Below are positions 11,401 through 40,228 of a stretch of 64,000 bases of DNA, piece by piece. Numbering within the stretch: position 1 is the first letter of the stretch; every line of letters starts with the position of its first letter. Both the position numbers and the translations under genes were made by a program. This DNA is from Cytophagales bacterium (GTDB lineage: Bacteria; Bacteroidota; Bacteroidia; Cytophagales; Thermoflexibacteraceae), in NCBI GenBank assembly GCA_013299115.1, contig JAAFKA010000006.1, positions 124,001 to 188,000 of the forward strand, given 5' to 3'. The notes beneath the pieces were generated by a model. It was not told where the DNA came from. It saw only the letters and a list, made by a program, of their open reading frames with translations, and did no database searches.

Positions 11401-12624
11401 ACCATTACAGGCTTCACCCCAACTTCGGGCGGTGTAGATGTTACTGTAACCATCACAGGCACAAACTTTACAGGGGCAACGGCTGTTACCATTGGCGGTG
11501 TGCCAGCACGCAGCTTTACTGTTGTCAATGCAAACACCATCACTGCGGTTACGAATGACAATTTTACAACAGGTTTAGTAACTGTTACAAACGGCATCAC
11601 TGTCAATTCAAGTGCTTTGGTAACGCCTAATTTCACTCGTTTAAGTTGTGTAAATCCTGTTACTAGCATCACAGGCGTAACCAACGAAGTATTAAATGGT
11701 GTAGCAGGTATTCGGGTCAATTGGAACAACGATGGCAGCAACCCAACAAGCACCATTTTATTGGTTTTCAAACCTGCCAATCTTAGCTATTATACTGCAC
11801 GTTTCTTGCCAGGCACTGCCACTACCTTCCGCATTGGTCAAGTAGAAGGCAATGCCATGAACTATGAAATTTACTTGCAGTCCTATTGTGGAGGCACTAC
11901 GTTGGGCAACCGCATCAGCACCACCTTTACAACTAATACCACAGGTGGCACTATTTGTAGCACACCCACAGGCAATAATGTAACCCTCAATGGGGGCACG
12001 CAAGCAATCTTTACATGGAATCCTGCACCGAATGCAGCGATGTATCAAGTGATGTACCAACTTACCAATGCAGCAGGTACAACAGGCTCTGGTGGTATGC
12101 AAACCTACTTAACTGCCCCTACCACTTCATGGACAGTTTCAGGCTTAACACCTATGCAATACTATCGTTTCCGCGTAAAAAATGTCTGTACTCTTGATAA
12201 TACTGTGAATACACCATTTAATAGTTTTGTGGTGGTGCAAGCCTTGCCAGCAAGTGAGGCAAGCCCCCTAACCCCCAAAGGGGGAATAGCCCCGCAACCC
12301 CCAACAGGGGGAGTTGACGTAATCACGTCAAACTCCCTTCCCTTTGGGGTGGGTTGGGGTGGGGCTGCTCTTTATCCAAATCCTGCACAAGACCAAGTTA
12401 CGATTTCCTTAGTTCCCCTTTCGGAGAGTGGAGGGCTTAGCTCCCCCTTTGGGAGCAGGGGGGCTGTCGTTGTGGTAGATTTACTCGGCAGAACAGTTTT
12501 GCAACCTGTTGAATTTGAAAACCAAACGACTTTGAACGTAAAACACTTGGCTTCGGGCAGTTATGTGGTAAAAATTACAACTGAACAAGGTGAGGTGGTG
12601 AGCAGGAAGTTGGTGGTGGAGTAA
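5401..12624 (+). CDS. Giant secreted adhesin-like protein with T9SS type A sorting domain
   Basis: This 2407-residue protein has an N-terminal signal peptide (hydrophobic LLLTLLVAW, cleavage near LFAQ). Ordered parts: an N-terminal beta-rich domain (about 35-270); a fibronectin-III-like domain (about 272-363); a long Thr/Asn/Gly-rich beta-repeat body with three modules of the SGNW...TWVGGVVP type (starts about 366, 947 and 1483, the first divergent); two copies of a module around NYVRGTLSRRF/PVGKATYNP and NYVNGKLARVF/PVGKGTYKP; an IPT/TIG domain (about 1998-2080); two more FN3-like domains; and a C-terminal sorting domain starting LYPNPAQDQVTISL and ending GSYVVKITTEQGEVVSRKLV. It should be exported by Sec, then by T9SS, and attached to or released from the cell surface; adhesion is inferred. 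Two G/C-rich repeat insertions (12264-12365, 12412-12471) interrupt the C-terminal region in frame. Confidence 0.9.
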   Translation: MFYHYTQTRRQISAFSALLLTLLVAWSQPLFAQFNSANYTYNTLTTGSLGQDKDANALDMSTGTTQAVAAGLDNNNSGGSPINIGFTFWLMGNTYTQFSTSDNGIVQLGSTVVSSATYNVGLGTVASPRIGAFAGDLRVGTDGKVHYKLFGTAPNRVLVIEYQNMSLLYVTPAAVGNGTFQVRLYENGSIIEFAYGSMFRNSGTSAANSQQVGIGFATNSTAGNFAYITSATPTNTTTGTFTQQPYTLSTNIANLHTTTEGSRRIFSYTPTTSVAAPSALTFTPYGTQMQVNWTPPTITNERAYKVYYSLDNVAFTLGATVNVGTNTALVSGLTFDTNYFWRVTSATEGGESAPATGTQATLNTPIAYTWNATSGTADFQVASNWTPNRTVIDNTDVLRFANGGTPTANNIPTQSFRKLRVTGNTAVTLSPTATNTLTLIGDGTPDAEISVDAGSTINQSTNLSINTSAGVPDEQVSIAGTWNVAASATLTLTNLNAGVANITGTVNNAGSVTSNTAAAIFQSGGIYNHTQNAGAVMAATWNTGSATNMTGLTTTAPLFGLNQTFYDFNWNCVGQTTTINISNTAMTVANNFTISNTNGFALRLAGASNTNITAKNVSILATGILSMSNGGIGVGTLRVSGTFNAATAIANGGGTNKGFIEFNGTTAQIPSFAGVNGTNSVSLRINNPAGVALSSTPAFVINDDSTMDMVQGSFTGTLSYGTTSATLSYTGSAAQTIGNELPTVLPPAITIINNSAGVTLPFSRSTNTLNLIAGILTVNTGSTMSILGTIGGSIMGGGATNYVRGTLSRRFGLGSTSYFYPVGKATYNPLTISSVTTSATATVSGTVEVFDVNSGGTPDFTTVGNLQNRYWALTLGGTVANFTSTSQITLQETAPIDNTTRIARSFTQTGTYTSVSNVGTLSSTISSTTGISNANANYFFALGLDNVYTATAQSGNWSDVNTWVGGVVPNSTAKGAIIRNGHTVTLDNNFTANSSIIQVGGSLVANANTLNIQPASGNNATLTVNGGLTIGGGTINVLGNVDISGASAAFTQTAGLLSIDGNGGVGVSVAQGTHLFNITNCTAINGSGGTIRIIDPPLSTYTASTTRAVSIGLNIAPTALFFTGTHTFEFGDGTSTTAGNTDGFVIDTYVGSIGTRTGLNNVTVNAGNPAGRWVTGTYCTSCATTILGTLTINSGSEFRHTLSTATLNVAGNVMNSGTFTCDKTVTFAGVSPTGGTAPAANAQTVSGGGVFRNLAASPTANFASIAFNNTSTGGVTFNIGNFNSWGTITFTAGKVNLSGNTFTLGISTVSRGALTYTAGGFANGTFTRWVSTIELPTSAPTTPNFPFVALSNGADRSVFLFRSATGSLTSGTISVSHTDATGFTPRAIFETCDTGSNGTWNFNNGNSLNPTGGATFSANIRAYQMVSINDAALLRMLESTGSTVRGTHATSSGTVTAPIISRTGLVLADITNITYSLNTQAANTSNTIVSATSGNWTTPATWVGGVVPTNADEVQILAGHNVNVDANGQAAALTIQVGGTLTHTTNGVVLDIAKTGRNDSYLVNKGTLTVGGNAATTLNLNGYVLIENGANFTQSNGTINVDGNSGTAATSVPNTNDIFAWGIGTATATRYNTGTTTLTGGQINIIDPHAITTAPIASAQGHSFAYRSDNNLNANPAHTLQFGDGTSTQAGGNTSGFTYSYFASGAGRFASGNFIANGTTSAANRLVTVLGTTSFGILGNFTTTANSTFNTGLTMNVGGNINNAGTTTISGIASLNMSNLISGANSSVTIPQTITSTGTLTIGSGGLQLDNTSAGGVTLNNNITTPSLTLSNGIVYTGANTLTVNGAISGGTATNYVNGKLARVFPFSGITSRVFPVGKGTYKPVDFEVNASGLGNPIVQIEVFDSNAGGTADGTVVGSLATNRYWKADVISSLLDINSYKVTLAETLTAPDNRINVASTAAGTYTNVNTTGTGTGSSIISNAGLVPTASNFFVISSVSPTITGFTPTSGGVDVTVTITGTNFTGATAVTIGGVPARSFTVVNANTITAVTNDNFTTGLVTVTNGITVNSSALVTPNFTRLSCVNPVTSITGVTNEVLNGVAGIRVNWNNDGSNPTSTILLVFKPANLSYYTARFLPGTATTFRIGQVEGNAMNYEIYLQSYCGGTTLGNRISTTFTTNTTGGTICSTPTGNNVTLNGGTQAIFTWNPAPNAAMYQVMYQLTNAAGTTGSGGMQTYLTAPTTSWTVSGLTPMQYYRFRVKNVCTLDNTVNTPFNSFVVVQALPASEASPLTPKGGIAPQPPTGGVDVITSNSLPFGVGWGGAALYPNPAQDQVTISLVPLSESGGLSSPFGSRGAVVVVDLLGRTVLQPVEFENQTTLNVKHLASGSYVVKITTEQGEVVSRKLVVE
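12264..12365. repeat. G/C-rich palindromic repeat inside the giant protein gene, before the sorting domain
   Basis: The stretch has runs of C then G (CCCCCTAACCCCCAAAGGGG), a central near-palindrome GAGTTGACGTAATCACGTCA, and a right arm CCCTTTGGGGTGGGTTGGGG. The two arms are imperfect inverted repeats. It is far richer in G/C than the flanking gene and encodes about 34 low-complexity residues rich in Pro and Gly (about 2288-2321). This is the look of an intergenic mobile hairpin repeat, here in a reading frame. Confidence 0.75.
12412..12471. repeat. Second G/C-rich repeat, inside the T9SS sorting domain
   Basis: TTCCCCTTTCGGAGAGTGGA, then CTCCCCCTTTGGGAGCAGGG. It encodes about 19 residues (PLSESGGLSSPFGSRG, about 2339-2357) that separate strand DQVTISL from VVVDLLGRTV, which are normally joined by a short turn in T9SS sorting domains. 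The frame is kept open. Confidence 0.65.
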
Positions 12625-12826
12625 ATTATTTATGATTTATGATTTATGATTTTTTTGTTGTCTATACTGCAAACGGGAAGGATTTCGGAAAATGGTTTTT
12701 GGTATAAAACGATGCTAGACAATGGGATATGCCCTATTGCGTATTATTGCAGTTTTTCGTTTTCCGAAATCCTTCCCGTTCATAGTATATATGCAAAAAC
12801 AAATCATAAATCATAAATAGACATGT
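12625..12826. mobile_element. Fold-back / MITE-like element with nested inverted repeats
   Basis: AACGGGAAGGATTTCGGAAA(A) at 12672-12692 has an exact 21-base complement at 12760-12780. Outside it, tandem ATTTATG units on the left (from about 12628) pair with CATAAAT units on the right (to about 12822). There is no reading frame in the element. It starts at the stop codon of the giant gene and ends about 85 bases before a dead transposase. No target-site duplication was identified. Confidence 0.6.
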
Positions 12827-18136: not shown

Positions 18137-19381
18137 CTACTTTCCAAAAAAATATAGCAACCAATCATCTACCAACCCTTTCCAATTTCCCCAAGAATGA
18201 CCTTGATTAATTTCTTGATAGCGGAAATTGTAGCCCTTGTCGGTCAGAATTTGCTTAAAGAGTTGGGTATCTTTTTCGCCATCAAATTGCAAACCAGAGG
18301 AAAGATACAATTTTTGGAAAGGGATTTTGGTTGTTTTAAAGTTGTCGAGTATAGACAACGACACCCAATAGGCAGGCGAATTGACTACAAACAACTGAAA
18401 AGAGTCGTTGGCTTTCCACGCAAAGTAAGTGGCACACAGCCCACCTAACGAAGTGCCTACCAAAGCCCTTTGTGCAGCCGAAGGATTGGTTTTGTAAGTT
18501 TTATCTATCGTGGGTATCAATTCTTTGGTAACAAACCCCAAAAACTTATCACTGTTGATATACTCCGTCATTCTTCGGTTTTCGTTCAGGTTGTTGGGCT
18601 GGCGAGGGTCTATGAAAACAGCTATGACAGGATTTATTTTTTGGGCAGCTATCAAATTGTCTAACGTAACCACCGCAGCCCCCATGCGAGGGTCGGCATA
18701 TTCTTGTCCGTCTGTAAAATAAACCACAGGCAAGTCTTTGAGTTGGTCGTAATTGGCAGGCACATACACCTTGTACTGTACCGCATAACCCAAAGCAGTG
18801 CTGTTTATCAACAAGTTAGCAGATAAATTGCCTTTGGGTTGCTTAGAATTTTGCGTTGGCATAGCCCAAGTTTCGGGTTTCCATTCGGGCATACGCAGTT
18901 CGGAATTTGGGGCACCACCGCCTATGCCAGCCCACTGTTGGTGCGGATTACCTTCGTCAAGTTGCCAATCTTTGCCGTTTAACACAATTTTGTAATCAAT
19001 TCTTGCATCTTTTGGCAACGACAATTTGCAATACCAGACTCTACTTTTGCCTATTTGCGTGCCTCGCAAAGAAGGTCGCCAGCCTGTAAAGTCGCCCGCC
19101 CACTCCACTTGCGTAGGGTTTTGGTTGGCGGGTGCTTTGTAAAACAAAACCACAGAGTCTGCCACGCAATACGGAATTTGTTGGTTCTTTTTGCGTTTTG
19201 CCCACCATTTTTCTACGGCTTTGGGCTTTGCCTCTTGCAAAGTTTGCTGCCAAGACAAAAAGTTTTTTGTAAACTCTTGATAATCATTGGCTTGATTTTG
19301 TGCTTGCATAACAAAAGGTAAGCAAGCAAGGAAGCAAAATAAAGTTCGCCTATATGCCAATACACAATTTGATTTGAACAT
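18137..19381 (-). CDS. Secreted Fes-like esterase (alpha/beta hydrolase)
   Basis: The protein has a signal peptide (FCFLACLPFVMQAQ), an N-terminal immunoglobulin-like early-set domain (about residues 60-150, with VEWAGDFTGWRP), then an esterase domain of the enterochelin-esterase/Esterase D type. Nucleophile motif GTSLGGLCA is followed by an Asp/His-containing end, with INQGHSWGNWK supplying the likely His. Such proteins hydrolyse ester bonds of siderophores or carbohydrate esters; the substrate is not clear here. I start at 19381 (MFKSN) rather than the ATG at 19417, because the extra 12 codons fall in a palindrome (AGTTGCC/GGCAACT) and precede a normal signal peptide. About 414 residues. 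Confidence 0.86.
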   Translation of the reverse strand: MFKSNCVLAYRRTLFCFLACLPFVMQAQNQANDYQEFTKNFLSWQQTLQEAKPKAVEKWWAKRKKNQQIPYCVADSVVLFYKAPANQNPTQVEWAGDFTGWRPSLRGTQIGKSRVWYCKLSLPKDARIDYKIVLNGKDWQLDEGNPHQQWAGIGGGAPNSELRMPEWKPETWAMPTQNSKQPKGNLSANLLINSTALGYAVQYKVYVPANYDQLKDLPVVYFTDGQEYADPRMGAAVVTLDNLIAAQKINPVIAVFIDPRQPNNLNENRRMTEYINSDKFLGFVTKELIPTIDKTYKTNPSAAQRALVGTSLGGLCATYFAWKANDSFQLFVVNSPAYWVSLSILDNFKTTKIPFQKLYLSSGLQFDGEKDTQLFKQILTDKGYNFRYQEINQGHSWGNWKGLVDDWLLYFFGK

Positions 19382-20645: not shown

Positions 20646-20752
20646 ATAAGTAGTTAGACTTAAATAATCGATAATATTTCAAGTGCTAAGTATCTGATTA
20701 TCAGAATTATCCGACACCTCAAAGGTGTCGGATAATTAGGTTCAACTACTTA
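20646..20752 (+). mobile_element. MITE-like element, copy A (~107 bp)
   Basis: The element begins TAAGTAGTTAGACTTAAATA and ends AGGTTCAACTACTTA, so its ends are inverted (TAAGTAGTT / AACTACTTA). The centre is a strong palindrome, ATTATCCGACACCTC paired with GGTGTCGGATAAT. A nearly identical copy lies inverted at 25961-26066, and a degenerate one at 20-91. No coding capacity. It lies between the convergent PorD-like and GWxTD genes. Confidence 0.78.
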
Positions 20753-25960: not shown

Positions 25961-26066
25961 TAAGTAGTTGAATCTAATTATCCGACACCTTTGAGGTGTC
26001 GGATAATTCTGATAATCAGATACTTAGTACTTGAAATATTATTGATTATTTAAGTCTAACTACTTA
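25961..26066 (-). mobile_element. MITE-like element, copy B (inverted)
   Basis: This is the reverse-complement counterpart of 20646-20752, differing at few positions: TAAGTAGTTGAATCTAATTA then the CCGACACC...GGTGTCGG core, ending AAGTCTAACTACTTA. The ~5.3 kb between the two inverted copies contains the GWxTD, M28, rsmA and radical SAM genes, so recombination between them would flip that block. Confidence 0.78.
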
Positions 26067-40186: not shown

Positions 40187-40228
40187 GTTTTGGGTTAGTA
40201 TTTTTTTACGTTTTTTTTACGTTTTTTT

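Follow-up and report, generated by a model that had tools for sequence, protein, structure and literature searches.

Results

The host gene and its two palindromic blocks

The features described here belong to one large gene in the window, by which we mean the whole 64-kb stretch of DNA that was analysed (Table 1). On profile and fold matches, the C-terminal end of the predicted protein is a T9SS type A sorting domain: residues 2324–2406 exceed the curated cut-offs of TIGR04183 (43.2 bits vs 23) and PF18962 (49 vs 27), and the top PDB fold match of the modelled domain is the mirolase T9SS C-terminal domain. The first-pass annotation had described two G/C-rich palindromic blocks at this end of the gene, with the reading frame open through both. 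The two blocks were seen where they had been placed, and the ORF contains no stop across either. The blocks are GC-rich and the host genes of the repeat are AT-rich.

Table 1. Positions of the host gene, its sorting domain and the repeat units within the window
Feature	Position	Strand	Description
Host ORF, 2407 aa	5401..12624	+	Large predicted secreted protein; fn3 and G8 domains, C-terminal T9SS type A sorting domain
T9SS type A sorting domain	12370..12621	+	TIGR04183 / PF18962 match; AlphaFold2 model; fold match
Block 1, composite palindromic element	12262..12366	+	105 nt / 35 codons; residues 2288–2322 = SPLTPKGGIAPQPPTGGVDVITSNSLPFGVGWGGA; directly before LYPNPAQ
Block 1, forward repeat unit	12262..12285	+	AGCCCCCTAACCCCCAAAGGGGGA, exact consensus
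Block 1, second forward unit	12288..12311	+	Diverged, 5 mismatches
Block 1, central small palindrome	12313..12333	.	GTTGACGTAATCACGTCAAAC
Block 1, second repeat type, reverse orientation	12333..12366	-	Terminates in GGGTTGGGGTGGGGCT
Block 2	12412..12465	-	54 nt / 18 codons; two reverse-orientation units, the first degenerate; residues 2338–2355 = VPLSESGGLSSPFGSRGA

Block 1 is preceded by a terminal A at position 12261. Central palindromes resembling its own separate the two units in many short elements of the genome, and the sequence in which its reverse-oriented part terminates has 22 genomic copies at no more than one mismatch. The predicted RNA fold of block 1 is stronger than that of shuffled sequences (−63 vs −48 kcal/mol, z −3.9), and a search of block 1 and the adjacent sequence for RNA families returned only matches far under the gathering scores. 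Block 2 folds no better than shuffles of its own composition (z 0.2), and a hairpin defined on its own thermodynamics was rejected. The status of block 2 as a repeat therefore rests on homology, since the C64 paralogue has intact repeat units where the window gene has block 2.

Both blocks are in frame and would encode Pro/Gly-rich linkers, in agreement with the earlier proposal that repeats are being turned into protein linkers. Block 2 falls between strands one and two of the sorting domain (9–13 and 31–37 of the AlphaFold2 model), where it forms a low-confidence loop with pLDDT <50 at 18–26. An alignment of 25 sorting domains of the genome also places extra residues between the first two strands; the loop suggested previously is thus present, with a length of 18 residues rather than about 19.

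Other repeats were noted in the window. An imperfect inverted repeat with 30-nt arms (12663–12692 / 12760–12789, 90% complementary) lies just downstream of the host gene, is flanked by ATTTATGATTT repeats and represents a separate repeat family. Inverted copies of 106 nt (20647–20752 / 25961–26066, 97% complementary) stand 5.2 kb apart and include the palindrome AATTATCCGACACCTCAAAGGTGTCGGATAATT. The dispersed repeat TACGTTGGCAATGACTTAGGCAGTCCCGTCAAGACCTTGACAATCGTA occurs in several copies, at 40224, 49630, 52019 and 52072.

Copies, architecture and location of the repeat family

Allowing one mismatch at most, the 5.50-Mb genome holds 131 copies of the 16-nt core AACCCCCAAAGGGGGA, against none for the reversed control, and this abundance is therefore not due to chance. 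Only a single copy lies in the window. The view of the blocks as copies of a dispersed repeat was thereby upheld. The repeat was censused in 1.16 Mb of sequence fetched around repeat matches, with ORFs used instead of a gene caller, and 212 units in 121 clusters were found. Inverted pairs ('+-') were the commonest arrangement (47 clusters), and no cluster consisted of '-+' alone. The canonical short element, as summarised from the copies listed, measures about 72 nt and reads A-AGCCCCCTAACCCCCGAAGGGGGAACTGACGTAATTACGTCAAAAACTCCCCCTTCGGGGGTTAGGGGGCT-T, in which a pair of inverted 24-nt units flanks a small central palindrome.

Most of the examined copies are intragenic: 94 of the 121 clusters lie inside ORFs of at least 200 aa, as do 42 of the 47 '+-' pairs, with up to seven clusters per gene. 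The description of the blocks as intergenic repeats was rejected on this census. A preference for coding locations is not claimed, because random windows already fall within such ORFs 71–79% of the time. Unlike REPs, the repeat does not avoid genes, even though no more than about 31% of simulated in-gene insertions, approximately one third, stay open. The lengths of the paired elements in genes fell into the three classes modulo 3 in the ratio 29:10:3 (29 of 42, binomial p = 3e-6 vs one third). The encoded peptides are mostly SPLTPEGG...PPSGVGGL, and the dominant phases are the two that run without a stop through the consensus pair. The open frames and the conservation of phase suggest that the repeats are translated. 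With regard to target-site duplication, matching flanks were not in excess over shuffled pairing at 4–9 nt, and a small excess appeared at 2–3 nt only.

The hosts of the repeat number in the dozens, are recognisable as conserved proteins and include products of housekeeping genes. Among them are LeuRS, MetH, AcrB, pyruvate carboxylase, methylmalonyl-CoA mutase, an FAD oxidase, Eco57I-type methylases, a C39 ABC transporter and a sortilin-like protein that holds seven clusters. One continuous Pfam match spans the insert in the AcrB-type pump. The closest relative, of the same genus, has few copies, and there, too, most of the copies read lie in long ORFs. Ten other genomes with DUF559 contain repeats of a related terminal motif, CTCACCCCNNNCCCCTCTCC, with 17 of the 29 copies read in open frames of at least 200 codons.

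DUF559 endonuclease inserts

The MetH ORF on contig C11 carries the single DUF559 gene of the genome. The DUF559 segment (residues 282–390) is in frame, interrupts the methyltransferase domain, has repeat units on both sides and is bracketed by the inverted-repeat arms AGCCCCC(C/A)AACCCCCAAAGGGGG. In a survey of Bacteroidia, DUF559 was detected in 157 of 395 genomes, and 81 of the 150 matches listed were in frames of at least 300 aa. We examined 80 DUF559 loci in public genomes of Bacteroidota, several of which belong to named, cultured strains, for example Marivirga aurantiaca and Flavobacterium cucumis. Fifty-four are embedded in frame in larger genes, and flanking inverted repeats scoring at least 13 occur at 38 of the 80 loci, compared with 0 of 80 shuffles. 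The insertion sites recur, with 18 loci in one MetH linker, 13 at LeuRS site 1, six at a second MetH site and five in RecG, and the same sites are empty in relatives, as seen in orthologues of LeuRS and MetH. In the present genome, short elements sit in the MetH linker and at both LeuRS sites, all of which bear DUF559 in other species. LeuRS and MetH each gave one match in this genome at the threshold used, and the genome thus seems to depend on these interrupted genes.

The DUF559 profile matches the homing endonuclease I-Bth0305I by sequence (1e-6) and by predicted fold (2.4e-4), and the E, D and H positions conserved in EDxHD-type nucleases are invariant in the DUF559 alignment A2. A DUF559 gene of a cyanobacterium has been placed in the EDxHD homing family (PMC9403480). 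No intein domain (Pfam) or intron match was found in the genome's own MetH and LeuRS proteins, and none of the Rfam introns matched at 11 loci. Some repeat-bearing genomes, such as G021, have no DUF559 at the threshold used.

Two further observations concern these loci. SAM riboswitches precede MetH genes that contain the DUF559 insert at two loci (L326, 579–698; L356, 378–484). In the LeuRS gene of G031 (L246), site 1 is taken by a short repeat like that of the window, and site 2 holds a DUF559 insert whose terminal palindrome is a different one.

Paralogues and local history of the window gene

Occupied, half-occupied and empty versions of the C-terminal segment exist in the same genome, and the block ends are in register. 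Both blocks are present in the C64 and C35 paralogues, block 1 alone in C26, a one-unit block 2 (NTPFGGRGA) in C24 and C39, and neither block in C14, C73 and C23. The first-pass annotation had held that the same residues in homologous sorting domains would count against an insertion. They were found in C64 and C35, and partly in C26, C24 and C39; the other paralogues and the other aligned sorting domains lack them, and the insertion reading stands for that reason.

The blocks common to several paralogues indicate that the window gene may have inherited them by duplication or gene conversion of its C-terminal end rather than by two fresh insertions, and both probably spread among paralogous T9SS cargo genes in this manner. 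In its strict form, this account has about an even chance of being correct: the window gene itself would have undergone no insertion event but would have acquired, by copying from a paralogue, a C-terminal cassette that already held both blocks, and selection may now act on the linker and loop. The distribution of the blocks among C64, C35, C26, C24 and C39 speaks for it, as does the downstream segment, which is more similar among paralogues than is the upstream protein. Cassette copying leaves the repeats elsewhere in the genome unexplained; it concerns the local origin only and is compatible with a mobile element. Between paralogues, synonymous changes predominate among the codons 3′ of block 2 (15 vs 11; 15 vs 6), which suggests that the sorting domain is still under constraint.

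Four sorting-domain matches of equal score and span are located at contig ends (G000 C15:87316–87489, C74:190470–190643, C10:11–184 and C42:11–184), which suggests that the assembly breaks at repeated sorting-domain coding sequence; this sequence may also undergo gene conversion. A series of similar genes (L152, C41:5000–24242) has the same single unit before LLFNGKELQTYADL, and the copies at 19307 and 22196 have other, repeat-like residues (SPQPQRGV) at that point.

Discussion

A translated mobile element as the preferred explanation

The comparison of genomes shows a dispersed palindromic repeat that lies in frame in many genes, is absent from the same sites in relatives, and shares both its ends and its sites with a DUF559 insert. 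We therefore consider it likely that the two blocks are short copies, not autonomous themselves, of a palindromic mobile element that lies in frame and is translated rather than spliced, and that DUF559 probably mobilises it; movement, homing and the mobilisation of the short forms by DUF559 are inferred. The element resides in protein-coding genes, leaves their frames open and is probably translated along with its hosts. In its long form, a gene for a DUF559 (EDxHD/Vsr-like) endonuclease lies in frame between the same terminal repeats; the endonuclease would cut conserved host genes, and the element would be copied into the break. The short forms would be internally deleted, non-autonomous relatives mobilised in trans, and the copies now seen are those which kept the reading frame. 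For the window gene, the outcome would be 35 extra residues as a linker ahead of the sorting domain and 18 as a loop within it, with both blocks most likely tolerated passengers.

Several observations count against this explanation, namely the lack of a target-site duplication, the few copies in the same-genus relative, the absence of DUF559, at the threshold used, from some repeat-bearing genomes such as G021 and the degenerate state of block 2. The recurrent sites, moreover, could simply be insert-tolerant loops, which would weaken the argument for homing.

The alternative that survives best, although we regard it as rather unlikely, is that the short repeats spread without DUF559, through recombination, replication errors or another enzyme, and that DUF559 elements merely borrow the same palindromes. 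More than 100 short copies face one DUF559 gene, target duplications were not found, and the repeat is present in some genomes without a listed DUF559 match, all of which would be expected if the spread were independent. Against such independence, units of the short-repeat family flank the DUF559 insert of this genome, palindromic inverted repeats flank such inserts in other genomes, and short and long forms have exact host sites in common. That the blocks are conventional REP/REPIN elements mobilised by a RAYT (Y1 transposase) is very improbable: the inverted pairs of palindromic units look REPIN-like and the genome has three PF01797 genes, but no unit lies within 1.5 kb of any of the three, the copies are intragenic rather than extragenic, and the consensus unit has no GTAG tag. 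A RAYT origin was rejected on the lack of units near these Y1 genes. Slightly less credible still is that the inserts never appear in protein, being removed at the RNA level as introns or skipped by the ribosome like the bypassing elements of yeast mitochondria; strong GC-rich hairpins in AT-rich genes would suit it, but the frames are open and the lengths keep phase, which skipping would not need, and neither an intron match in Rfam nor an intein domain in Pfam was found.

Implications of the proposed DUF559 link

Returning to the DUF559-mobilised element, the chances appear balanced that it represents a class of splicing-free homing elements across Bacteroidota. In such a class, a DUF559 gene bounded by coding palindromes would sit in frame in core proteins (MetH, LeuRS, IleRS, RecG), be translated with the host, and mobilise short palindromic derivatives that become linkers, including the sorting-domain loop described here. 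In-frame palindromes are already known from the RPEs of Rickettsia; in the open-access literature, no report was found that connects DUF559 with such in-frame elements. No dedicated enzyme for in-frame palindromic repeats is named in the sections of the RPE and REP reviews used here (PMC10969869, PMC3733652). If true, a connection to a homing-type endonuclease through the shared termini would provide a mechanism that is testable in cultured Flavobacterium species, and a mobile element would be seen to persist by being tolerated as protein in core enzymes. It would also show how repeats can give rise to new linkers and loops, in this instance within a secretion signal, and annotation pipelines and structure predictors should then treat such inserts as foreign segments.

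Comparison with known systems

The closest precedent for in-frame palindromes, on the review excerpts available, is the RPEs, which are short palindromic repeats found in frame in protein genes unrelated to one another, where translation is expected (PMC10969869, PMC3733652). The present repeat is likewise a multi-copy palindrome that lies in frame in unrelated genes and has empty sites in relatives. It differs in phylum and, as judged by inspection alone, in sequence; it numbers 94 intragenic clusters counted in part of one genome; and its terminal repeats are shared with a DUF559 gene, whereas the same excerpts mention no endonuclease-bearing relative of RPEs (PMC10969869, PMC3733652). REPs and REPINs resemble it as short palindromes, often in inverted pairs. 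REPs, however, are mainly extragenic and their GTAG families are tied to RAYTs, neither of which is true of the repeat here; according to the part of the REP review consulted, some REPs are intragenic and CGTC REPs apparently have no transposase (PMC3733652).

As regards EDxHD homing endonucleases and Vsr, DUF559 matches I-Bth0305I in sequence and predicted fold, and the DUF559 inserts reuse identical sites in conserved genes. Unlike I-Bth0305I, which is named in the PDB as a mobile intron protein, they stay in frame, and no intron or intein was found. The short elements are like MITEs in being small and non-autonomous, with terminal inverted repeats and a longer gene-bearing relative that shares the termini; they differ in that no target duplication and no transposase were found and the longer form encodes an endonuclease.

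Compared with other T9SS type A sorting domains, that of the window gene has an 18-residue loop, encoded by the repeat, between its first two strands. In RgpB, a longer linker before the sorting domain is reported to yield a soluble, non-glycosylated protein (PMC4804311). By analogy with this result, linker length could influence the release of the cargo, and block 1 may affect surface attachment.
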